The translations under genes and the position numbers were made by a program. Positions 51,297 through 64,000 of a stretch of 64,000 nt of DNA are shown in pieces. The stretch is from Acidobacteriaceae bacterium (GTDB lineage: Bacteria > Acidobacteriota > Terriglobia > Terriglobales > Acidobacteriaceae). Below the pieces are notes generated by a model, which was given only the letters and a program-made list of their open reading frames with translations, searched no databases and was not told the DNA's origin. Each line of letters starts with the position of its first letter. Positions within the stretch are counted from its first letter, which is position 1. The stretch is taken from assembly GCA_030040425.1 (NCBI GenBank), contig JASHTS010000128.1, positions 1 through 64,000 on the forward strand. The letters run 5' to 3'.

Positions 51297-52922
51297 TCAG
51301 TGCAACGTCGCCAGGGACGGATTGGTGTTTTCCGGCGGAAGATGCGCGGTAAGCGGGCGAAGCGTCGGGGCTGAGGCAATCTCTACGCCGTCGCAAAGTA
51401 CGCGCAACCCGGTCCCGCGATGGTATCGGGCGCCATCCCGGTCATAGAGGATCGCGAGCAGATGGCCGTGGTAGGGTACGCCGTCAATCGCGAACCATGG
51501 CCACTCGTCCGACACCAGCGGATGGATCGTCAAGGCGTCCCCCGGAGCAGGACGCAGGCCAATGAGCCCGGTAATGACAAGATCGGCAAATCCTGAGTGA
51601 TTGTAATAGCGCCCGCGGTTCGCCGGCGGCTGTTTCTTTTCCTCGAGGATAGTGCGGGCGATCCACTGTCCGGTGTCCGGATCGAGGTCTTCGTCAATCC
51701 ACGGGATACGCCGCCCGTTGGGAAGCTGGATATGCTGCGAGAGAACATACTCGGCGAGGATCTCGCGGTAAGCGCCGGGGCCGATCACTGTTTGCGAGGG
51801 GCCGTTCAATAGATTTGCCAGCGCAATCAGCGTCTGCGTGGTGGCGAAGGGCCAGGATGGTCCATTCCAAAGGCACTCGTGCGGATATGCAAAGCGGAAG
51901 CGCGGGCTTCTTCGCTCTGCCGTCGTTGGGCCATATTTTCCGGCAAAGCCTTGCGGGTCCGTCAGCTGTTCCCAGGCGACGGCGCGATTGGCATGCGGCA
52001 GATTGAAGTACCAAGGCACGTATCCAATCAGCTCCCGAACGTCCACCCAGCCTGCAGCGGAGCCGCGGTGTACCGTCTCATAGAATTGGTCGGTGGGATT
52101 CCAGAGCCAGCTCTCTACCAGGGCACGCAGGTCTTCAGCCTTTTTTTCGTATTGCAGCTCGAGCGCGCTGTCGCTTTCAATTTCCGCCATTTTGGAAATA
52201 GCGGTCGCGTCTCCGTACATATAGCTATTGATGGTGGGGCGATAGCCGCTGCCGCCGATCGAGTCTTCCATGCCGTCGCGGTCGTCGATCTGCCAGAATA
52301 GCCCGTTGGGATCCCGATGCGTCTTTTCCCACGCATCGTAATTATTCACCAGGGCCGGCAAAAGGTCGATCACCAGCCTGCGATCTCCCTGCGCAAGATA
52401 CACCGCATAGATGGAGTCGGCCGCGGCAAAACTGTAGCGCCGCGGTTCGCCGTCGGGCGAGAGCCAGAACCGTGCATCGTCGTTGGCGTACTTTGCGTCG
52501 CGCAGCCAGCGAGCCTCTTTGAGGTGATCCTCCGCCGCGCAGTCGATGGCGTTGAATTTGCCCGCCCAGGGCACGTTGTCGAGAAACTCATCGATGATAT
52601 AGCCATCCGGCGTAAGCCGGATATGTTTTTGAAAGGAGTACCAGCGGAAATAATAAATCTCTTCGAGGTTCTTGTCCGGAACATCAAGCCAGGGGATATT
52701 CCGCGTCATCCACGGCCATTCATTCGGCGGATTATCGTTAAGAAACGCGCGCTCCTGTTGCTCGAATTCAACGAAATAATGACGGAACGCGTCAGGGTGG
52801 AGCAACTCCTTCCTCGGCTCAATCGGGCGCTGGGCTTGCGCTGCAGCCACATGCGGGAGAAGGGACAGGAGCAACGGAACGATCAAGAGCAGCAAAGGCG
52901 CGCGGGAGTCGCGAGGTTTCAT
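51297..52922 (-). CDS. Secreted MGH1-like (alpha/alpha)6-barrel glycoside hydrolase
   Basis: Signal peptide; IYYFRWYSFQKHI; WQIDDRDGMEDSIGGSGYRPTINSYMYGDATAIS; HECLWNGPSWPFATTQTL. Confidence 0.82.
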   Translation of the reverse strand: MKPRDSRAPLLLLIVPLLLSLLPHVAAAQAQRPIEPRKELLHPDAFRHYFVEFEQQERAFLNDNPPNEWPWMTRNIPWLDVPDKNLEEIYYFRWYSFQKHIRLTPDGYIIDEFLDNVPWAGKFNAIDCAAEDHLKEARWLRDAKYANDDARFWLSPDGEPRRYSFAAADSIYAVYLAQGDRRLVIDLLPALVNNYDAWEKTHRDPNGLFWQIDDRDGMEDSIGGSGYRPTINSYMYGDATAISKMAEIESDSALELQYEKKAEDLRALVESWLWNPTDQFYETVHRGSAAGWVDVRELIGYVPWYFNLPHANRAVAWEQLTDPQGFAGKYGPTTAERRSPRFRFAYPHECLWNGPSWPFATTQTLIALANLLNGPSQTVIGPGAYREILAEYVLSQHIQLPNGRRIPWIDEDLDPDTGQWIARTILEEKKQPPANRGRYYNHSGFADLVITGLIGLRPAPGDALTIHPLVSDEWPWFAIDGVPYHGHLLAILYDRDGARYHRGTGLRVLCDGVEIASAPTLRPLTAHLPPENTNPSLATLH

Positions 52923-53938
52923 TCTGACTCCTCAAAGCCAAGTGACGGTCCACGGTGCGTAGCCAATCCGATCTGCTCGAGATGAACATTTCTGCCGTTG
53001 TACCAGAGCATCCATTTGCCGCCGGCGAGTATCGCGTAGGGCTTGTAGCACGCGTCTGCGTCAAAGCCGCTCCCGACGGCGCGAATGATGGGATTCGCCG
53101 GGCAGCGTTCCCAGGCATACAGGCCATCGCGCGAGCGGGCGAGCCCGATCTGCGCATGGTCGATATCGCGATAACCGATATAAAGCGCGTAGTACCAGTC
53201 GTCGCGGCGAATCACCTGAATGCCGGCAACGCGCTGTTTCTCCCATTCATACTGGGGATCCGGCCGAAACACCGGATTCCCTGAATTCTTTGTCCAGTGC
53301 AATCCATCCTTGCTCAAGGCGTAGCCGATTGCGTTCGGCTCATATTGTGCGCCGCCGGAATACCACATCCGCCACTCTCTCCTTTTCTCGTCCCACAAGA
53401 CGTGCGGGCACATCAGAGCCACGCCTTCCCAGGGCAGCTCCGGCCTGAGAACCGGGTCTCGGGACTGGCGCACCCATGCAGTCCCATCGCGGCTCGTTGC
53501 ATATCCGATGGCTGAATGACCGTCCTGCCGCCCTTCTCTCGACGGCGTCCGGCTCCACGTCTGGCCGGTGTACCACATGTGATAGCCATCCGCGCGCTTC
53601 ACTACAACCGGCCGGTTGATGTCGTCCTCCCATCCGGATGCCGGATTGGGAGACAGCACGATCTGTGGTGCTGACCAATGGATGCCGTCGCTGCTTTCGG
53701 ACAGAGCCACCGATTTCTTGGGCCGCCAGGAGAGCCACATCCGGAATCTGCTTCGATCCTCGAGAACGCATATGTCAAAACAGCTCCCGTATTCCGCTCC
53801 CAGAACGGGATTCCCAGAGTATTTGTGCCAACCTGCGCTTGTCTGCTCTTCTTCAGGAACAGACCAGCCTCCAGAGCTTTTGAGGTTCGCAATTCCCACC
53901 GCACCTAGCCACGCGAGCACCGCACGGCGATTGATCAT
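52919..53938 (-). CDS. GH43/GH130-like five-bladed beta-propeller glycosidase-family protein (paralogue 1)
   Basis: WHKYSGNPVLGAEYGSCFDICVLEDRSRFRMWLSWRPKKSVALSESSDGIHW...GYHMWYTGQ...AIGYATSRDG...MWYSGG. Confidence 0.75.
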   Translation of the reverse strand: MINRRAVLAWLGAVGIANLKSSGGWSVPEEEQTSAGWHKYSGNPVLGAEYGSCFDICVLEDRSRFRMWLSWRPKKSVALSESSDGIHWSAPQIVLSPNPASGWEDDINRPVVVKRADGYHMWYTGQTWSRTPSREGRQDGHSAIGYATSRDGTAWVRQSRDPVLRPELPWEGVALMCPHVLWDEKRREWRMWYSGGAQYEPNAIGYALSKDGLHWTKNSGNPVFRPDPQYEWEKQRVAGIQVIRRDDWYYALYIGYRDIDHAQIGLARSRDGLYAWERCPANPIIRAVGSGFDADACYKPYAILAGGKWMLWYNGRNVHLEQIGLATHRGPSLGFEESE

Positions 53939-54024
53939 GACACAACCCGCTCCCGATTCTCCAACGCAAAACAATTCAAAGACACCCCGGCTGCATTCCA
54001 GCCCGCTTCAGCAGCCACATGATC

Positions 54025-55005
54025 TTAGGACTCTGCGATGAAATCCAGACTTTCGCCGGAGTGCGTCACGAGCCCGATCTGCTCCAGGTGCTCCCTCCGG
54101 CCGTTATACCAGAGCCTCCATTGGCCATCGGAGTACAGGGCATAAGGCTTGTAACAGGCGTCCGCATCCCAGCCTTTCGGAGTTGGCCGCACAATGGGAT
54201 CTTCGGCGTGACGGATCCAGCCGGTAATGCCGTCTTTGGAACGCGCAAGCCCAATCTGCGCATGATCGATATCGCGAAAGCCGATATAGAAGGCGTAGTA
54301 CCATCCCTTCCAATAAAGTATCTGCGCTGCCGTTACGCGGTCTTTTTCCCAATCGTTTTTGGGATTCGGCCTTAGCACCGGGTTGGCATTGTACTTGTGC
54401 CAGACGAGTCCGTCGCCGCTGGTTGCGTAGCCGATCGCATTGGGCTCATATTGTTGGCCACCCGAGTACCACATTTTCCAAATTCGATTTTCACTGTCCC
54501 ACAGCACGTGCGGGCACATAACCGCGACACCCTCCCAGGCAGCCTCCGACACCAGAACCGGCTTATCTGACTGCCGCGTCCACTTCACTCCGTCCGGGCT
54601 TGTCGCGTAACCGATCGCCGATCGCCCCTTGGCCTGGCCCGTGTACCACATGTGGTAGCCGTTTTCACGATGCACTACGACCGGACGATTCATGTCGTCT
54701 TCCCAGCCGGTCTGAGGCAACGGGGCGAGCACGATCTGCGGCGGATTCCAGTGGATACCATCCGTGCTTTCAGTGATGGCGATGCTCTTCTTTGGACGCC
54801 AGGAGACCCACATCCTGAACTTCGCGCCTTCTTTCAGCACGCACACGTCAAAGCATGTGCCATATTGCCCGCCAAGAACAGGATTCCCTTCGTATTTGAC
54901 CCAGCCACGAGGGCGCTCCGCGTTAAAAGCTCGCAACGCTCTGCCCAGCGAAAGTGCCGCAGTTGCGGCTCCCAGGATCTTCAGCAAACTCCGTCTCTCG
55001 ATCAT
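54025..55005 (-). CDS. GH43/GH130-like five-bladed beta-propeller glycosidase-family protein (paralogue 2)
   Basis: WVKYEGNPVLGGQYGTCFDVCVLKEGAKFRMWVSWRPKKSIAITESTDGIHWN...; colinear with the ORF at 52919-53938. Confidence 0.75.
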   Translation of the reverse strand: MIERRSLLKILGAATAALSLGRALRAFNAERPRGWVKYEGNPVLGGQYGTCFDVCVLKEGAKFRMWVSWRPKKSIAITESTDGIHWNPPQIVLAPLPQTGWEDDMNRPVVVHRENGYHMWYTGQAKGRSAIGYATSPDGVKWTRQSDKPVLVSEAAWEGVAVMCPHVLWDSENRIWKMWYSGGQQYEPNAIGYATSGDGLVWHKYNANPVLRPNPKNDWEKDRVTAAQILYWKGWYYAFYIGFRDIDHAQIGLARSKDGITGWIRHAEDPIVRPTPKGWDADACYKPYALYSDGQWRLWYNGRREHLEQIGLVTHSGESLDFIAES

Positions 55006-55044: not shown

Positions 55045-58000
55045 TTAAAAGATCGCGTGGAGCGAAAGCTGGATGTTCCTCGGAGCATTGGCGGTGCTGA
55101 TAATGCCGAAGCCCTCTGTGTCTGGCGAGACCTGGTTGTTGTAGCCGGGGGCCTGCAGCACGGTGTGATTCAATGCATTGAATGCCTCGGCGTGGAAGTT
55201 GAGCTTCACCGATTCCCAGATTCCGAAATCCTTGTCAAGGCTGGCGTTGAAGTCTTCGATGCCTGATGCCGGTCCTTTGAAGACGCCGTTGATCGCGTTG
55301 CCCAGGTAGAGGCGGTCGCCCGTCGGCAAGGTGGTTAAGGATCCATTGACCATAACCTGGTCAGCGTGGATGAATTTGCTGGGATCGATCCAGCTCACGC
55401 CAATTTCGGAGCCGCCGGACACGACTGTCTGTTTACGGTTGGATAGCAGCGCGCCGCCTCCGGTGTAATTCGCGTAGCATCCCGCCGACTGGAAATTAAA
55501 TGCGTCGCAGCTGTTGTCTGAGATGCTGCCGTACGAGCCGGTGATCGCCGTGCCCGTTCCGCCGATCGCCCAACCTCCGAAGATCTTGTCCGCAGTCCGG
55601 TAATTTCTGAGGAAGGAAGGGATCTTGTAGCGGAATGCAGCGGTCATTTGATGGACAAAGCCGGGGCTGTAGTAATCGAGCGCGCAGTCCGCCAGGTATC
55701 TGCAGCCATTCTGTTGCGCCACGTCGTTGCTGAAAGTGTAGGTTCCCAAAAGCGTCAGACCATAGGAATACCGCTTATTGACCTGCACCTGAAGCGAGTT
55801 ATACATGGAGTTGTAGTCGGAGTAGAGCGTAGTGATGCCGCTGAAGCCGGCCGGGTAATACGGCTCGCGCGAATATACGTTGGCAGCATCGTTTGTGCTG
55901 CCGCCGGGAAGGAATACCGGCCAGTTCTGGTTGTGGGTTTCGAACAGGTGCGTTCCGCGCGTGGCCACCCAGGCGGCAGAGAAGACCCAGGTGTTGATGG
56001 GTTCGATTTGATACTCCAGATCGAATTTTGAGTACTCGCCATTGTTGAAGTTCGGGGCTAAGGCCTGTTCCGTGAGGGGATTGGGGAAAACGAGGGTCGC
56101 GGCCGCCGCCGAGCCCGCGGTGGGCGCGGTGAAGGGGAACGGCACGCTGCCATATTGTGCATAAGGCTGGGAAAGGTTCAGCCCCGGACCCTGTGCGGGC
56201 GAATAATCGACGCCAAATGGGGCGGCGGTCGTGTATCCGTTGAAAGTGAGAAGGTACTCATAGTCGGTGTACAAGCCGTACCCGCCCTTGAGCGCCGATT
56301 TGTGATTTCCGAAGATGTCCCACGCGAACGAGAAGCGAGGACCGAGGTTGTAGTGGTTGCCAGTGAGGTTCGGTGGAATTCCCGCATCGCCTACGGTCAC
56401 CAGTCCGACAGGTGCGGTGGGAAATACGGTGGATGGTTGTCCTGGACGGAAGGTGACGAACCGGTTCTTTTCCTCCCTGACTCCGAAATAGGGCTGCAAA
56501 CGCAAGCCAGCCATGAATGTGAGTCGCGGGTTCAGTTTGAACGTGTCCTGGATGTACCCCTCGCGGGCCGGGTAGTTGACGATGAGATTTTGCGCGCTGT
56601 TCTGATAAAAGCTGGCGCCGAATTGCCCGAGAGGCCCGCCGTTCAGCATCATGTCGGCAATGCCATTTCCGGTCCCACCAAAAACGTTGTCCGAGTCTTC
56701 GAACGAAACGTCGGCCCCTGCATCCCAGGTTTGGCTGAAGACTTCGTGATAATTGCGCAACTCGAGGCCGGTCTTGATGGTATGCCGGCCCTTGGTCCAT
56801 GTGAAGTTGTCTGTAATGTCCCAGGTGTACTGGGTCATGGGATTGACGTAACCCTGCCAGATATCGACGCCCATGTTCCGCGGAGTCGAAATCTCCATGA
56901 CATCTGGAGCCAGGTGGTCACCGACGGCGGCGATGCCTGTGTTCTGCGGATTGATGATCCCGCTGCACGGGGCGCAGGTGTTGGTCACCGAGATTTCAGT
57001 CTGAGTGAGGCCAAGAACGAAGTTGTTCAGCATCGACGGGTTAATCGTGTAGGTTTCGTTGATTGCCCATACCTTGGTCTGGATGGGTTCACCCCAGGTC
57101 GCGTCGGGATCGGGGTACTGCGTGGCCCAGGATGCTTCGCTGAACTCGTCGTACATATCCTGGAAGCTGGGCGAGTCGTTATACCACCAGAGGCTTCCGA
57201 AGATACGGTTTTTGCTGCCGAGATTCTCGTCGACTCGGACGACCCAGGTTTGAATGAGCGTATTGAAGCTCGGAGTCCAGGTGAATGTGTCGGTTCCGCT
57301 GGTGGGCGCGGGCATGATCGCTGTTCCGCCGGAAGCATTGAGGGCTTGTCCGATGGGCCCGAAGTCGGATGCCGGAATGACGGGGGTCGCCACGCCGTTG
57401 ATTACTGGTACGCCGTCGGGTGAATCGGCGAAATTGCCGCCGCGCTCATCGTTGGTAATTGTCTGCCCGCTTGTGGTGGAGTTCTTCGAAGTGCTGGTGC
57501 GCTCATAGGAGACGAAGAAGAATGTCCTCTCTTTTCCGTTGTACAACTTCGGAATCCAGACCGGACCTCCAACATTTCCGCCGTACCACTCCTGGTGAAA
57601 GGGCTGACGCGCGACTCCCTGGAAATTGTTCGACCAGGAGTTCGCGTTCCACGCGCCGTTCTGAAGATAGGTCCAGAATTGCCCGTGAAACTGGTTGGTG
57701 CCGTTTCTCAGCGTAGCCTCAATCTGGCCGCCGGCACCGCGGCCGACGGAGGCGTCAGGGAGGGCTGATGCGACGCTGAACTCGGCCGTGTTTTCCGACT
57801 GGGGGTAATCAGCCGCGGCTGAGCCATGCATATAGTCGTTCATAGCTGCGCCGTCGATATCGTAGTTATTGGTGAGCTGGGAAACGCCGTTGAAGCTGGT
57901 TACCGGGATGAAGAAGCTGGCGCCGGTCCCGGCGGCCGTAGCGCCGGGCATCAGCACCTCCATCGATTCGCGCGGGTCACGCCCTTCTACTGGAACCCCC

Positions 58001-58560
58001 TCGATCAAATCGGGGTCGATGGTGGTCAGATTATTGGCCGTCTCCGTATCCACCATCGCCGACGAGCCAGACACGGTCACGGTTTCCACCGCGGTCCCCA
58101 CCGACAGCGCCACGGGAAGCGTTGCCGATCCGCCGGCATGAAGAATCACCTCGTCCGCCTGGAAAGTCTTAAACCCTTGCATGGTGCATTTCACCGTGTA
58201 CGCGCCGGCGGCGAGCGAGACAAATTGATAAAGGCCCGACCCGTTGCTCACCGTGCTCGAAGTCACGCCTGTTTCCACATTTCGCGCCACAATGGTGGCG
58301 CCGGGAACGACCGCGCCGTTTTGATCATTTACGGTGCCGGAAAGAGACGCCGAAATGTCGACCTGCGCCGGGGAGGTTAGAGATGTTGCCAACAGCAAAG
58401 CCACGCAGCACAGCACGGAAGAGAGTCGGAATGGTCCAAGCATGTCGCGGACCAAATTCTGCCGGGAGCCGGCGGTCTTTTTGCTTCTCAAGGGGTTGAC
58501 CGCAGACCAGAGAGTGCGCGCAAGGCTCGGGGATTCGCCAGTATACGGGTATCCTGTCAT
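55045..58560 (-). CDS. TonB-dependent receptor, Oar-like
   Basis: ISASLSGTVNDQNGAVVPGATIVARNVETGVTSSTVSNGSGLYQFVSLAAGAYTVKC; VPVEGRDPRESMEVLMPGA plug; C-terminal PRNIQLSLHAIF. Confidence 0.92.
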   Translation of the reverse strand: MTGYPYTGESPSLARTLWSAVNPLRSKKTAGSRQNLVRDMLGPFRLSSVLCCVALLLATSLTSPAQVDISASLSGTVNDQNGAVVPGATIVARNVETGVTSSTVSNGSGLYQFVSLAAGAYTVKCTMQGFKTFQADEVILHAGGSATLPVALSVGTAVETVTVSGSSAMVDTETANNLTTIDPDLIEGVPVEGRDPRESMEVLMPGATAAGTGASFFIPVTSFNGVSQLTNNYDIDGAAMNDYMHGSAAADYPQSENTAEFSVASALPDASVGRGAGGQIEATLRNGTNQFHGQFWTYLQNGAWNANSWSNNFQGVARQPFHQEWYGGNVGGPVWIPKLYNGKERTFFFVSYERTSTSKNSTTSGQTITNDERGGNFADSPDGVPVINGVATPVIPASDFGPIGQALNASGGTAIMPAPTSGTDTFTWTPSFNTLIQTWVVRVDENLGSKNRIFGSLWWYNDSPSFQDMYDEFSEASWATQYPDPDATWGEPIQTKVWAINETYTINPSMLNNFVLGLTQTEISVTNTCAPCSGIINPQNTGIAAVGDHLAPDVMEISTPRNMGVDIWQGYVNPMTQYTWDITDNFTWTKGRHTIKTGLELRNYHEVFSQTWDAGADVSFEDSDNVFGGTGNGIADMMLNGGPLGQFGASFYQNSAQNLIVNYPAREGYIQDTFKLNPRLTFMAGLRLQPYFGVREEKNRFVTFRPGQPSTVFPTAPVGLVTVGDAGIPPNLTGNHYNLGPRFSFAWDIFGNHKSALKGGYGLYTDYEYLLTFNGYTTAAPFGVDYSPAQGPGLNLSQPYAQYGSVPFPFTAPTAGSAAAATLVFPNPLTEQALAPNFNNGEYSKFDLEYQIEPINTWVFSAAWVATRGTHLFETHNQNWPVFLPGGSTNDAANVYSREPYYPAGFSGITTLYSDYNSMYNSLQVQVNKRYSYGLTLLGTYTFSNDVAQQNGCRYLADCALDYYSPGFVHQMTAAFRYKIPSFLRNYRTADKIFGGWAIGGTGTAITGSYGSISDNSCDAFNFQSAGCYANYTGGGALLSNRKQTVVSGGSEIGVSWIDPSKFIHADQVMVNGSLTTLPTGDRLYLGNAINGVFKGPASGIEDFNASLDKDFGIWESVKLNFHAEAFNALNHTVLQAPGYNNQVSPDTEGFGIISTANAPRNIQLSLHAIF

Positions 58561-58641
58561 CGTGGAACCTCCTGAAGTGCAAACAGAAACGTATACCCCT
58601 TTTCGGCCGTAAGCGTGAATCGAGCCATCCGTCGGTGTCCA

Positions 58642-58766
58642 GTACATTCCTCGTTAATCGCTGTACATTCAGGGCGCGCTCGCCAGGACGCTGAATGCGA
58701 GGAAACTTCTGGTAGTTAACGGCTTAGTGTCACGTTACAACTGGCTGGCATCATCCGTTACAACTG
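58642..58766. promoter_or_regulatory. Two pairs of direct repeats in the divergent promoter region
   Basis: GTACATTC at 58642-58649 and 58663-58670; CGTTACAACTG at 58733-58743 and 58756-58766. Confidence 0.5.
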
Positions 58767-58799: not shown

Positions 58800-60377
58800 G
58801 TGATAACGTTGGAATCGCCTGGGGGCGGCATGTTGGTAATTGACCGAACTGCGGAACTGGCCGAGTATGAAGCCGTAATCTCGTCTGCTCATTTCGCTGG
58901 CACGACAAACTCCAGCCGTCTGCTGCGCTATGTTTGCGACAGATTCTTCCTCGGGGCCACACATATCACTGAAGCAGAGGTCGCGGTCGGGGCCCTGGGC
59001 CGGCGAACAGATTTCGACTCGCAGCAGGATTCGATCGTGCGAGTCGAGGCCCACCGCGTTCGCAAGCGCCTCCATGATTTTTACGAGAGCGAGGGAGCCG
59101 GCCACGCGATTCGGCTCGTCCTTCCGCTGGGCAGTTATCTGCCCCATTTTGTTCCCGCGGACGAAGTCGCCGGAGCCGCCAGGAATGGAGAGGTGGCGGA
59201 GATACCCCAGCTCGCGGGGCCTCTTTCATCCAAGCCGCGGGGACCGATCCGCAAACGGGCCATCCAGATTTCGGCACTGCTCTTCGCCGCCTTCCTTGTG
59301 GTGGCGGGCTACCTCTATTTTCACAATCGCGTGAAGACGCCCGCGCCTGCGCTTCCAGCATCGGCAGCGCCGACGTCAGCGGCCGCACCGGGGCCACCTG
59401 AAGTTCTTGTCATGGCCGGTTCGTCGGCCAGGAGCTACACCGACCAGCTCGGGCACGTCTGGTCTGCCGACCGCTATTTTAGCGGGGGCGAAGAATGGCA
59501 GGTTTCGTATCGCAGAATTCTCAGGACCAGCGATCCGCAGCTGTTTCTATCCGCGCGGCAGGGCCAGGATTTCAGCTACGACATTCCACTCAAGCCCGGG
59601 TATTACGAGTTGCGTCTCTACTTTGCGGAGACATTTTACGGGGAAGACAACACCGAAGGCGGCGGCGAATCGAGCCGGATGTTTGACGTGACCGCGAACG
59701 GCGCGCCGATCCTGACCAATTTCGATCCGCTTTCCGATGCGGGAGGAAGCAACACTGCGGACGTTCGTGTGTTTGCGGGAATCTCGCCGGGCGCTGACGG
59801 CAAACTTCATCTTCGATTCCGCAACCACTTTGCGCTCAAAGCGGTGGCCTTCGTCAACGCGATCGAGCTGACGCGCACTGAAGGCAAAGCCATGCTTCCG
59901 GTCCGCTGGGTAGCCAGTGATTCCGCCGTGGAGGACAAGGCGGGCCGGCTCTGGGTTCCGGATCAATTTGTTGAAGGCGGACGAAGGCGCGCGCATCGGA
60001 ATCAGGTTCAAGGCACCGAGGAGCCTGAGCTTTACCAGTCAGAGCGCTATGGGAATTTCACTTACGCGATTCCTGTTTCGTCCGATGCGACCTATACACT
60101 CACCCTTTATTTTGCCGAAGAGTGGTTCGGCACCTCGGACACCGGAACTTCAAATACCGGTTGGGTCGGCAGCCGCGTCTTCGACGTCTATTGCAACGGA
60201 ATTTTCCTCCTGCATGACTTCGACATTTACAAGGAGTCGGGAGGGGCCCTGCGAGCGATCACGCGCACCTTTCACGGATTGAAGCCGAATCACCAGGGCA
60301 AGCTCTATCTTTCCTTTGTTCCCAATCAGGATTACCCGAACATCACCGCGCTTGAAGTCGTTCCCGAGCGCAAATAG
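58800..60377 (+). CDS. Putative membrane-bound regulator: cytoplasmic HTH-like domain, TM helix, two malectin-like domains
   Basis: N-terminus SSRLLRYVCDRFFLGATHITEAEVAVGALGRRTDFDSQQDSIVRVEAHRVRKRLHDFYESEG; TM IQISALLFAAFLVVAGYLYF; two units of QDFSYDIPL/NFTYAIPVSS...YxLxLYFAExxFG...SRxFDVxxNGxxLLxxFDxxxxxGG. Confidence 0.8.
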   Translation: MITLESPGGGMLVIDRTAELAEYEAVISSAHFAGTTNSSRLLRYVCDRFFLGATHITEAEVAVGALGRRTDFDSQQDSIVRVEAHRVRKRLHDFYESEGAGHAIRLVLPLGSYLPHFVPADEVAGAARNGEVAEIPQLAGPLSSKPRGPIRKRAIQISALLFAAFLVVAGYLYFHNRVKTPAPALPASAAPTSAAAPGPPEVLVMAGSSARSYTDQLGHVWSADRYFSGGEEWQVSYRRILRTSDPQLFLSARQGQDFSYDIPLKPGYYELRLYFAETFYGEDNTEGGGESSRMFDVTANGAPILTNFDPLSDAGGSNTADVRVFAGISPGADGKLHLRFRNHFALKAVAFVNAIELTRTEGKAMLPVRWVASDSAVEDKAGRLWVPDQFVEGGRRRAHRNQVQGTEEPELYQSERYGNFTYAIPVSSDATYTLTLYFAEEWFGTSDTGTSNTGWVGSRVFDVYCNGIFLLHDFDIYKESGGALRAITRTFHGLKPNHQGKLYLSFVPNQDYPNITALEVVPERK

Positions 60378-60429: not shown

Positions 60430-61737
60430 ATGTACATTCCGCTCGTCTGCGGATGCCCGGCTTTTCGCTTGGAAAAATGCAGGAGGCTTTCGTCCGGCCT
60501 TCTGTGGTCATTCCTGCTGGCCGCGATGATTTCTTTTGGCTATCACTCTTCCGCGCAGCAGCCGGCGCAAGCCGACTCGCGAATTGTTCACCTCGCGCAG
60601 CAAGCGGAGTCTGATCTTCACAGTCAGAGGCCCGATCTGGCTGCGTCCGAATATGAAAGGATTCTCGCTCTCGATCCCAACAACCTGAGCGCCCATTCGA
60701 ACCTGGGACTGGCGGACTATCTGCAGGGCAAGTTCGCCCCAGCGGCCGAGGAATTTGAGAACGTTCTCGCGCTCAAGCCCAATCTTTGGAACATCGACGC
60801 CCTCTGCGGGCTGTCTGAAGCGAAGACCGGCAAGAACGCGGATGCGACCCTGCACCTTGACCTCGCATTCCAGCATGTGGACGAGCCCGTGCTTCGCCTT
60901 TCCGTCGGCCAGCAGCTGTTCACCCTTTTGTTTCAATCGGGCCAATTGGTCCGCGCAGGTGACGTGGTCGATCGACTGCAGCAGCTCGATCCCGGCAACA
61001 TTGACGTGCTCTATGCCGCGCACCAGGTCTACTCAATGCTCGCCGACAAGGCCTTCGTCAGCATGGCGCAGCTCCAACCCGCCTCCGCACGCATGTTTGA
61101 GCTGCGCGCCGATCGCATGGCCGGGATGGGCAATATCGAAGGCGCTATCCGGGCCTATCGCCTCGCCATCCAGGGCGACCCGCATCTTTCGGGCGTGCAC
61201 TTCGCTTTGGGCGAGGCGCTCAGCGTTTCTCACGACGAAGCGGAGCGCGCAGGGGCCGAGGGCGAATATAACAAAGCGCTTGAGGACAATCCCCTCGACG
61301 AAAAGGCAGAGTGCAGGCTGGGAGACATTGCGATGCGGCGCTCCGACCTCAAGAGCGGGGCACAGCATTATCAGCGCGCTCTCGCGCTCCAGCCCGGCGA
61401 CGCCGATGCAAATGAGGGCTACGGCATGATACTGCTGAGCTCAGATTCCGCCCGAGAAGCTCGCGTCTATCTTCTCCGCGCCGTCAAGTTCGATCCTTCC
61501 GACGTGACCGCTTACTATCACCTGAGCGAGGCCAGCCGGAAGACCGGGGATATGGACGATGCTCGGACCGAGATGGATGAGTTTCTCAAGTTGAAGACGG
61601 CGCAGGACACTCTGAAGCATAGCTTCGACGATTTGCCTCTCCGGACCCTTCCTCAAAACTCCGGCAAGGGAGACGAGGAAGCTTCTCCGCAAGGTGTCCC
61701 GGCTCTGCCACCACCAGTGCCCAACAAGAATTTTTGA
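60430..61737 (+). CDS. TPR-repeat protein with signal peptide
   Basis: Repeats such as ASEYERILALDPNNLSAHSNLGLADYLQGKFAPAAEEFENVLALKPN and LKSGAQHYQRALALQPGDADANEGYGMILL. Confidence 0.87.
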   Translation: MYIPLVCGCPAFRLEKCRRLSSGLLWSFLLAAMISFGYHSSAQQPAQADSRIVHLAQQAESDLHSQRPDLAASEYERILALDPNNLSAHSNLGLADYLQGKFAPAAEEFENVLALKPNLWNIDALCGLSEAKTGKNADATLHLDLAFQHVDEPVLRLSVGQQLFTLLFQSGQLVRAGDVVDRLQQLDPGNIDVLYAAHQVYSMLADKAFVSMAQLQPASARMFELRADRMAGMGNIEGAIRAYRLAIQGDPHLSGVHFALGEALSVSHDEAERAGAEGEYNKALEDNPLDEKAECRLGDIAMRRSDLKSGAQHYQRALALQPGDADANEGYGMILLSSDSAREARVYLLRAVKFDPSDVTAYYHLSEASRKTGDMDDARTEMDEFLKLKTAQDTLKHSFDDLPLRTLPQNSGKGDEEASPQGVPALPPPVPNKNF

Positions 61738-62141: not shown

Positions 62142-63971
62142 TCACTGTCCGGCCGGGGTCATCGAGGGGGGAGCCGCATCCACAGCGCTGCCCCAGTTCG
62201 GATTCGGTTGCGGCCCCAGGGTCAGCACGAGCTCGGCACCGCCGGCGATGTCGGACTGGCTGAACCATGGTTTGTTCCAGGGCTTGCCGTTGAGGGTGGC
62301 CGACTGGATATACACATTCTTTGCCGAGTTATTGCGGGCAAGAATGACGAAGTCCTTTCCGTTGCTTATATGGATGGTGGAGCGATCGAAAATCGGGCTG
62401 CCCATGATGTAATTCGGGCTGGACGGATCGACCGGATAAAATCCCAGCGCGCTCATCACATACCACGACGCTGTCGAGCCCTGATCATCCATCCCCGGAA
62501 ATGCATAACCAGTCTTATCGCTGCCGTACATCAGATCGAGGATTTCGCGTGTGAGTTTTTGCGTCTTCCACGGCTCGCCGCCCCAGTCGTAGTAATACGC
62601 TGCCTGCTGGTCCGGCTGATTGCCCTGCGCATACTGGCCGATCACTCCTGTGCAGTCGCGGCAGATGCCTTTCGCCGTATACGGCGTGCTGAAAAAGGCG
62701 TCGAGCTTCGCGTCAAACTTCTCCCGCCCACCCAGCAGGTCGATGAGGCCCTGCACGTCGTGGGGTACCAACCACAGCGTCGACCAGCCTGAGGCTTCCT
62801 TCATCATGAAGTTGTAGTAAGGCTCGCGGGGATCGAAGGGCGAGATCCAGTTGCCATCCGCGGTGCGGCCACGCATGAACCCGACACCCGCATCGAATAC
62901 GTTGCGGTAATTATGCGCGCGCTCGAGGAACATCTCATAGTCGTCTTGCAGTCCAAGCTTCTTCGCGTAGAGAGCGAGAGCGTAGTCGTCCCAGCTGTAT
63001 TCGAGCGTGGTAGCCGCCCCGGCCTTGCCTCCGGCGTAGGGCGGGCTTGGATTGCGGTCGGGGATGAAGTCGGAAATCCAGCCCTGCTTCATATACTCGG
63101 CGAGATACCGGCGCGGACCGTTCGGATCAGTGGCATTTTTGCGCAGATATTCGTACGCCCGAGCCCAATCGAACTGCAGGCCACGCTGCCAGTCGCCAAG
63201 GAAAAGGAGGTCGGCGTTGTCGCCATGGAAGGATGTTCCCATGTATCCGGTTTCGCGCGCGATGTCGAGTTGCGAGCGCAGAATGTCCACCTTGACGGCG
63301 GGCTCGAGCATAGTGAGGAGCACAACCTGATTGCGTCCGGTATCCCAGAGAGGCACCTGATTGTAGCGATCGAACTCTGCCGTGTGAATCTTCCCGTCCT
63401 CCCCGAAAAACCGCTCACCCTTTTTGGCAAGAAGCTGCGGGCTCTCGAACGAGTGATAGAGGCAGGAATAGAAGAGCATCTTCTGCTTCTCCGTTCCGCC
63501 GGCTACCTCGATCTTGTTCAGGTCCGCGGCCCACGCTTCGCGCGCCTCCTGGTGGATACGGTCGAAGTCCCAGCCCGGATCTTCCGTTTGCAGTCTCGCG
63601 TCCGCCGCATCATAACTCTCGCCAGTGGCGACCTTCACGAGAATCTGCTCGCCTGCCGTGCTGGAAAAGCGCAGGTACGCGCCCGCGAATTGTCCGCTGA
63701 TGCTCTTCGCTCCGGGATCGACCTCGCTGAAACCGATGATCGGCCAGCCGGTCCCCTGCCGCGGATGCTGTTTGAATGTGCCGAATATGTGAAACGGGCG
63801 GGAGAACTCGGCCACAAAGTAAATGTCCTTATCCTGCAGTTTGCCGCGCACCGTCTGATCGTCGGGGATTTCGATGTCGCCTCCCCGATCGCCGAGATCG
63901 AGCAGGATGTGGGCCTTATCCGTTTGCGGGAAGGTGAAGCGGAACAGCCCGGTCCACAGCGTCGCGGTCAT
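62142..63971 (-). CDS. GH92-type alpha-mannosidase (N-terminus outside window)
   Basis: EYSWDDYALALYAKKLG; YAFPGMDDQGSTASWYVMSALGFYPVDPSSPNYIMGSPIFDRSTIHI; the reading frame runs up to the window edge. Confidence 0.9.
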   Translation of the reverse strand: MTATLWTGLFRFTFPQTDKAHILLDLGDRGGDIEIPDDQTVRGKLQDKDIYFVAEFSRPFHIFGTFKQHPRQGTGWPIIGFSEVDPGAKSISGQFAGAYLRFSSTAGEQILVKVATGESYDAADARLQTEDPGWDFDRIHQEAREAWAADLNKIEVAGGTEKQKMLFYSCLYHSFESPQLLAKKGERFFGEDGKIHTAEFDRYNQVPLWDTGRNQVVLLTMLEPAVKVDILRSQLDIARETGYMGTSFHGDNADLLFLGDWQRGLQFDWARAYEYLRKNATDPNGPRRYLAEYMKQGWISDFIPDRNPSPPYAGGKAGAATTLEYSWDDYALALYAKKLGLQDDYEMFLERAHNYRNVFDAGVGFMRGRTADGNWISPFDPREPYYNFMMKEASGWSTLWLVPHDVQGLIDLLGGREKFDAKLDAFFSTPYTAKGICRDCTGVIGQYAQGNQPDQQAAYYYDWGGEPWKTQKLTREILDLMYGSDKTGYAFPGMDDQGSTASWYVMSALGFYPVDPSSPNYIMGSPIFDRSTIHISNGKDFVILARNNSAKNVYIQSATLNGKPWNKPWFSQSDIAGGAELVLTLGPQPNPNWGSAVDAAPPSMTPAGQ

Positions 63972-64000
63972 CTCGGCTTTGGCGTGGAAATCGTCGAGAT

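Follow-up and report, generated by a model that had tools for sequence, protein, structure and literature searches.

Results

A Predicted Membrane-Anchored Regulator Faces an Outer-Membrane Receptor Gene

The open reading frame at 58800–60377 on the plus strand of the 64 kb window (the whole stretch of DNA that was analyzed) is a real gene. Its frame opens at GTG 58800 and spans 525 aa. ATG 58830 is the likelier start because GGGGGCGG stands directly 5′ of it, and the product would then have 515 aa. The gene, its domains, its neighbors, and the predicted operator half-sites are as follows.

51297–52922, minus strand: MGH1-like glycoside hydrolase
52919–53974, minus strand: GH32/43/130-like protein
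54025–55005, minus strand: GH130-like protein, the next gene after the receptor
55045–58647, minus strand: Oar-like outer-membrane receptor (CarboxypepD_reg and OMP_b-brl_4), divergent, the proposed target; start probably near 58443
58652–58657, plus strand: predicted operator half-site CGTTAA
58714–58719, plus strand: predicted operator half-site AGTTAA, within GTTAAC; also CGTTAA on the minus strand
58733–58743, plus strand: predicted operator half-site CGTTACAACTG, copy 1
58756–58766, plus strand: predicted operator half-site CGTTACAACTG, copy 2, 23 bp from copy 1
58830–60377, plus strand: putative membrane-anchored one-component regulator, with winged helix, linker, transmembrane (TM) helix, malectin 1, and malectin 2 (Pfam, hydropathy, AlphaFold model)
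58830–59186, plus strand: predicted N-terminal winged-helix DNA-binding domain, without a Pfam family (AF2, fold matches, profile alignment)
59034–59087, plus strand: recognition helix α3, with conserved R71, R76, R78, K79, and R80 in model numbering (AF2 and alignment)
59109–59156, plus strand: wing (β hairpin), sequence IRLVLPLGSYLPHF (AF2 and alignment)
59187–59258, plus strand: putative cytoplasmic linker, predicted disordered (pLDDT <50 at model residues 119–147)
59259–59315, plus strand: single transmembrane helix (hydropathy and full-length model)
59403–59879, plus strand: malectin domain 1, Y89-equivalent aromatic lost (Pfam, model, alignment)
59901–60365, plus strand: malectin domain 2, E-R-aromatic-G motif conserved (Pfam, model, alignment)
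60430–61737, plus strand: TPR protein, downstream; TPR neighbors recur in the family
62142–63998, minus strand: GH92 α-mannosidase, cut by the window end, its own upstream region lying outside the window

In the full-length model (mean pLDDT 87.7), a winged helix is joined by a linker of low confidence to a TM helix, and two β-rich domains follow. The sequence-only reading had anticipated this ToxR/CadC-like order, an HTH-like N-terminal domain followed by one TM helix and two malectins, and Pfam, hydropathy, and AlphaFold bear it out. Structure prediction had been proposed there as a check on both halves of the protein; it returned a confident winged helix for the N-terminal half and two β-rich domains for the sensor half. 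One strong hydrophobic TM segment is found at aa 154–172; when the same rule is applied to 79 family proteins, 66 show a single segment. Positive-inside bias is slight (3.1 versus 2.6 K/R). Since the fold of the N-terminal domain is of a DNA-binding type, we infer that the winged helix faces the cytoplasm and the malectin pair the periplasm. On that basis, the opposite topology, a second case named against the sequence-only reading, did not arise. A Pfam scan of the regulator found no kinase, receiver, sigma, or anti-sigma domain.

The N-Terminal Domain Is Very Likely a DNA-Binding Winged Helix

An AlphaFold model of the N-terminal domain, built with 74 sequences, has a mean pLDDT of 92.7 and a pTM of 0.84; three helices are followed by a long helix and two strands. 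When the model was compared with the PDB by Foldseek, the best five matches were all OmpR/PhoB-type DNA-binding domains, among them SaeR (probability 0.98), ArlR, and DNA-bound PhoB. The scores are weak, with a best E value of 0.044 and TM-scores of 0.41 and 0.47 for the best match. The model lacks the N-terminal β sheet of OmpR-type domains and has an extra N-terminal helix in its place. A profile of the domain aligned in register with that of Trans_reg_C domains from the same genome over 76 of 77 columns (hhalign score 13.4; maximum 8.3 in 100 column shuffles). Searching PDB sequences with the profile gave chance matches only. In helix α3, R71 and R78 are present in all 74 sequences, K79 in 73, R80 in 69, and R76 in 68, while the net charge of the domain as a whole is slightly negative.

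Taken together, the fold model, the OmpR/PhoB-type matches, the profile alignment, and the basic recognition helix make a DNA-binding winged helix very likely. The domain had been described from sequence as HTH-like, which agrees with the model and its nearest folds; a domain devoid of DNA-binding features, the case named against that description, did not arise. Trans_reg_C (PF00486) is not matched by the query protein even at E 10, and it is matched weakly by two relatives. For this reason the protein is likened to CadC in its mode of action but is kept out of PF00486.

The Domain Recurs with Different Sensors across the Acidobacteriota

The domain spans ∼aa 13–127, and a search of Pfam and NCBIfam gave no family match for it. 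The genome of the window holds 13 copies, and at least 80 full-length homologs or loci with the same domain order, all from Acidobacteriota, were found in the genome collection. The 13 copies and the 80 full-length homologs sharing one domain order identify a real conserved family and exclude chance. The earlier suggestion that this ∼110 aa region is a recurrent acidobacterial module holds, with fusions of other kinds across the phylum. Within the genome, its partners are a double malectin (two copies), GH16, TPR/FlgO-like domains, and an unnamed periplasmic domain. Other Acidobacteriota have up to 19 detected copies per genome, and elsewhere in the phylum the domain is fused to TolB_N/FlgO-like plus TPR or AAA/NB-ARC modules, some copies having no TM segment. 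Within the family sample of 101 genomes, 18 encode the full-length double-malectin protein. Homologs are also present in cultured members such as Terriglobus albidus and Occallatibacter savannae.

Several of these relatives have architectures of their own. One paralog (L002, contig C82) joins winged helix and TM helix to a GH16 domain (PF00722, E = 7.8e-14), possibly an enzyme-derived glucan sensor. Seven others (L004, L005, L006, L007, L008, L010, and L013) have a similar-looking C-terminal periplasmic region without a Pfam family. In another acidobacterial family, the domain is joined to an AAA/NB-ARC module and resembles STAND-type regulators (L174).

The Regulator Pairs with a Class of Receptor or with TPR Proteins

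Among 76 loci of the family, the directly divergent neighbor of the regulator gene is an Oar-like outer-membrane protein in 30 and a secreted-looking TPR protein in 36. In the tree, a branch with 100/100 support separates 37 receptor-linked rows, the window among them, from 39 TPR-linked rows. The paired receptors are ∼25% identical to the receptor of the window, except at one locus (L043, 80%). A single conserved orthologous receptor was therefore ruled out as the partner, and the pairing is with a protein class. In the genome itself, which holds 58 outer-membrane receptor matches, 10 of the 13 N-domain genes lie within 5 kb of a receptor gene of this type (binomial p ∼2e-6, against a simple length-based expected rate of 0.16). 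Just beyond the window end, near 75338 of the same genome's contig C200, a CadC-type protein of ∼811 aa with a true Trans_reg_C domain (L156) adjoins another receptor gene; winged helices of both types thus seem to be used at receptor loci here.

Several loci of the receptor-linked clade carry glycan-degrading genes (GH3, GH31, GH43, and pectate lyase-like; in the window GH130-like, MGH1-like, and GH92). A general link to glycosidases was dropped, as many homologs have none nearby.

Phased GTTA Repeats Form a Probable Operator

The intergenic DNA at L043 contains GTCACGTTAAAG and GTCAGGTTAAAG, 22 bp apart, and these together with the repeats in the window led to a family-wide test. Across 76 upstream regions, the gene strand carries 180 copies of the core [CG]GTTA[AC], and 53 of the regions have at least two; in 200 dinucleotide shuffles, the count averaged 25 and peaked at 41. 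GTTACA is enriched 39-fold relative to other intergenic and random pieces from the same loci. Spacings with an excess of direct repeats include 10, 11, 21, and 32–33; the spacings of core pairs peak at 10, 32–33, and 42–43, and a typical triad reads GGTTACAnnCCGTTACA...CCGTTAA. The cores are phased with a period near 10.5–11, with R = 0.83 in the TPR-linked class (86 pairs) and R = 0.63 in the receptor-linked class (23 pairs; nominal p = 1e-4, p values here being indicative only since pairs and relatives are non-independent). The receptor-linked class, which includes the window, shows less regular repeats.

The density of cores upstream is ∼7.4 per kb for the malectin regulators versus 1.0 for the other N-domain paralogs of the genome and 0.14 for Trans_reg_C genes. 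The value of 1.0 rules out a common operator for all N-domain paralogs. The second double-malectin copy in the genome (L003) has one core only upstream. In the 64 kb window, the sole spot with at least three cores inside 120 bp is 58652–58766, between the regulator and the divergent receptor gene. These phased direct repeats, [C/G]GTTA[A/C], are probably the operator of the regulator. The regulator is the only gene that the receptor-linked and TPR-linked classes have in common; hence the simplest reading is that it is the regulator that binds the repeats.

The sequence-only reading had placed the adjacent receptor, the glycosidases, and the GH92 gene under control of this protein. The receptor link is supported by the conserved pairing and the predicted operator in the shared intergenic region. 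Control of the glycosidases and GH92 found no such support: the window holds no other operator-like cluster, and many homologs lack nearby glycosidases.

Other elements were considered in the same DNA. The 11-mer CGTTACAACTG has two copies in the 4.56 Mb assembly, both at the predicted operator sites, with about two expected by chance. No distant regulon emerged through this 11-mer, the word being confined to two sites, although the chance expectation makes the count weak evidence. Inverted repeats were rejected as the operator; they are few and weak, and in L043 none was found. A sigma-70 promoter scan found no promoter, and alignment of the intergenic DNA of the window with that of L043 showed only patchy conservation. 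In TPR-linked loci (e.g., L062, L076, and L083), a second conserved element, GCAGGTATAGCGTTG, lies on the minus strand ∼220–280 bp upstream of the N-domain start. It resembles the −10 region of the divergent TPR gene, and in many loci a GTTA core lies ∼33 bp away.

The Sensor Half Is a Tandem Malectin

Two stretches of the sensor half match malectin (PF11721; E = 4.4e-44, 150.8 bits versus a curated cut-off of 23), and the scan of the whole genome places them at 59424–59771 and 59925–60350. Foldseek gave FERONIA and ANXUR, with their tandem-malectin ectodomains, as the nearest solved structures (E = 1.5e-21 over ∼380 columns), and human malectin as a lower-placed match. The orientation of the two domains fits those of FERONIA and ANXUR poorly (rmsd 8.4).

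In malectin, the ligand residues are Y67, Y89, Y116, F117, and D186 (PMC7783096). Three of these positions (Y89, Y116, and F117) were mapped through alignment to PDB 2jwp, with the chain numbering taken as offset by 27. Malectin 2 has an aromatic residue at the Y89 position in all 64 family proteins, and each position of the surrounding E-R-aromatic-G motif is kept in 63 or 64 of them. The Y116 and F117 positions, W and F in the protein of the window, vary across the family. Y417 and W442 are aromatics of malectin 2 in this protein. The Y89 position of malectin 1 is mostly occupied by Q. Because the Y89-type aromatic is kept in malectin 2 and lost in malectin 1, sugar binding appears plausible in the former domain but doubtful in the latter. 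The proposal that both malectins sense sugars finds partial support, mainly for the second domain.

Discussion

From the computed domains, predicted fold, conservation, repeats, and gene pairing, we infer a membrane-anchored one-component regulator that would sense a ligand through its malectin pair, bind GTTA repeats through its winged helix, and control the divergent receptor gene as well as its own; we give this reading a probability of roughly three in four. The winged helix, cytoplasmic and tied through a disordered linker to one TM helix, would bind the phased [C/G]GTTA[A/C] direct repeats in the intergenic region common to the regulator gene and the divergent outer-membrane receptor gene. 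The periplasmic malectin pair would have its binding site mainly in malectin 2, with a carbohydrate as the likeliest ligand. Ligand binding might then alter the pairing of monomers so that they fill the repeats, and the filled repeats would regulate both genes. That the effect is activation is a guess.

The main rival keeps the same type of membrane regulator and changes its signal: the protein would watch the cell's own envelope or exopolysaccharide, as plant malectin receptors watch wall integrity, instead of food sugars. The FERONIA and ANXUR ectodomains are the structures nearest to the sensor half, no glycosidase family recurs among the neighbors of the TPR-linked clade (39 rows), and those neighbors include a pyridoxal-type acyltransferase and a dihydroorotase (names read from sequence), all of which suits an envelope signal. 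Several receptor-linked loci carry glycan-degrading genes, however, and we hold this reading as a tentative second choice. The same glycan genes speak against a malectin pair that serves purely as a dimerization or protein-binding scaffold, for example for a TPR partner or an outer-membrane protein, with no role in sugar sensing, as does the E-R-aromatic-G motif of malectin 2, kept almost throughout the family. Loss of the Y89-equivalent aromatic in malectin 1, variation at Y116/F117 in malectin 2, and the recurrence of TPR proteins beside the regulator gene speak for a scaffold, and the FERONIA ectodomain has been solved in complex with the peptide RALF23 and LLG2 (PDB entry title). On this evidence, a scaffold alone seems unlikely.

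The output half could also be read differently. Winged helices can bind proteins, the net charge of this one is near neutral to negative, and its fold matches are weak; it might therefore hold a protein partner, the GTTA repeats belonging to another transcription factor that controls the divergent genes. Against this, the repeats accompany the regulator in two clades whose divergent genes differ, and they are rare upstream of N-domain paralogs, upstream of Trans_reg_C genes, and in intergenic control pieces. The domain also has a conserved, basic recognition helix. PhoB-type winged helices bind phased direct repeats, and the arrangement found here suits such a domain. A purely protein-binding winged helix is thus improbable, and we retain the DNA-binding, ligand-sensing regulator.

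Transmembrane one-component regulators are already known as a kind, including CadC, ToxR, TfoS, and ChiS (PMC5430869; PMC11856585). Like the CadC/ToxR group, the protein would combine a cytoplasmic winged helix, a disordered linker, one TM helix, and a periplasmic sensor, with no phosphorelay and with nearby promoters as targets; the linker of CadC is equally disordered (PMC5430869). It differs in that its N-terminal domain is not recognized as Trans_reg_C and lacks the N-terminal β sheet in the model, in its tandem-malectin sensor, and in a predicted operator of GTTA direct repeats rather than an AT-rich quasi-palindrome. OmpR/PhoB domains (Trans_reg_C, PF00486) provide the nearest fold and share the order helix, helix, recognition helix, wing and, as predicted here, the use of phased direct repeats, but the query has no Pfam match, the TM-score stays below 0.5, and an extra N-terminal helix replaces the sheet. 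TfoS and ChiS of Vibrio, which span the membrane, regulate transcription in response to an oligosaccharide, chitin (PMC11856585); their sensors and targets are different.

As in FERONIA and ANXUR (CrRLK1L), two consecutive malectin domains are predicted to lie outside the membrane next to one TM helix. Here, in contrast, the TM helix is N-terminal to the sensor, the output is a DNA-binding domain and not a kinase, and the domain orientation fits poorly. Animal ER malectin (CBM57) is the same domain, and its Y89-type aromatic is kept in malectin 2, whereas here the domain is bacterial, occurs in two copies, and varies at other ligand residues. Bacteroidota place a membrane sensor beside an outer-membrane receptor and glycosidases in their SusR-type hybrid two-component systems and ECF sigma/anti-sigma pairs. 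Domains of the types used there (kinase, receiver, sigma, or anti-sigma) are absent from the present regulator.

No earlier description seems to exist of the DNA-binding family, of the tandem-malectin input, or of the operator. The open-access literature (subscription papers lay outside the search) yielded nothing that joins malectin with Acidobacteria, nothing on malectin-type regulators in bacteria, and nothing that joins malectin with bacterial transcription factors and TonB-dependent receptors, in line with the earlier remark that no characterized example was known.

More broadly, it is fairly probable that the unnamed winged-helix family forms the output half of acidobacterial membrane regulators with exchangeable sensors (double malectin, GH16-like, TPR/TolB-like, or the unnamed domain), most copies lying near a receptor that they would control and the malectin branch acting on phased GTTA repeats. 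Acidobacteriota abound in soil and have outer-membrane receptors in very large numbers. For these receptors, candidates can now be named for a regulator class, an operator, and a target. The structure of the sensor suggests that a type of ectodomain used by plants in wall sensing serves bacteria as the input of a transcription factor. If true, the winged-helix family would be the acidobacterial counterpart to the SusR and sigma/anti-sigma systems of Bacteroidota.
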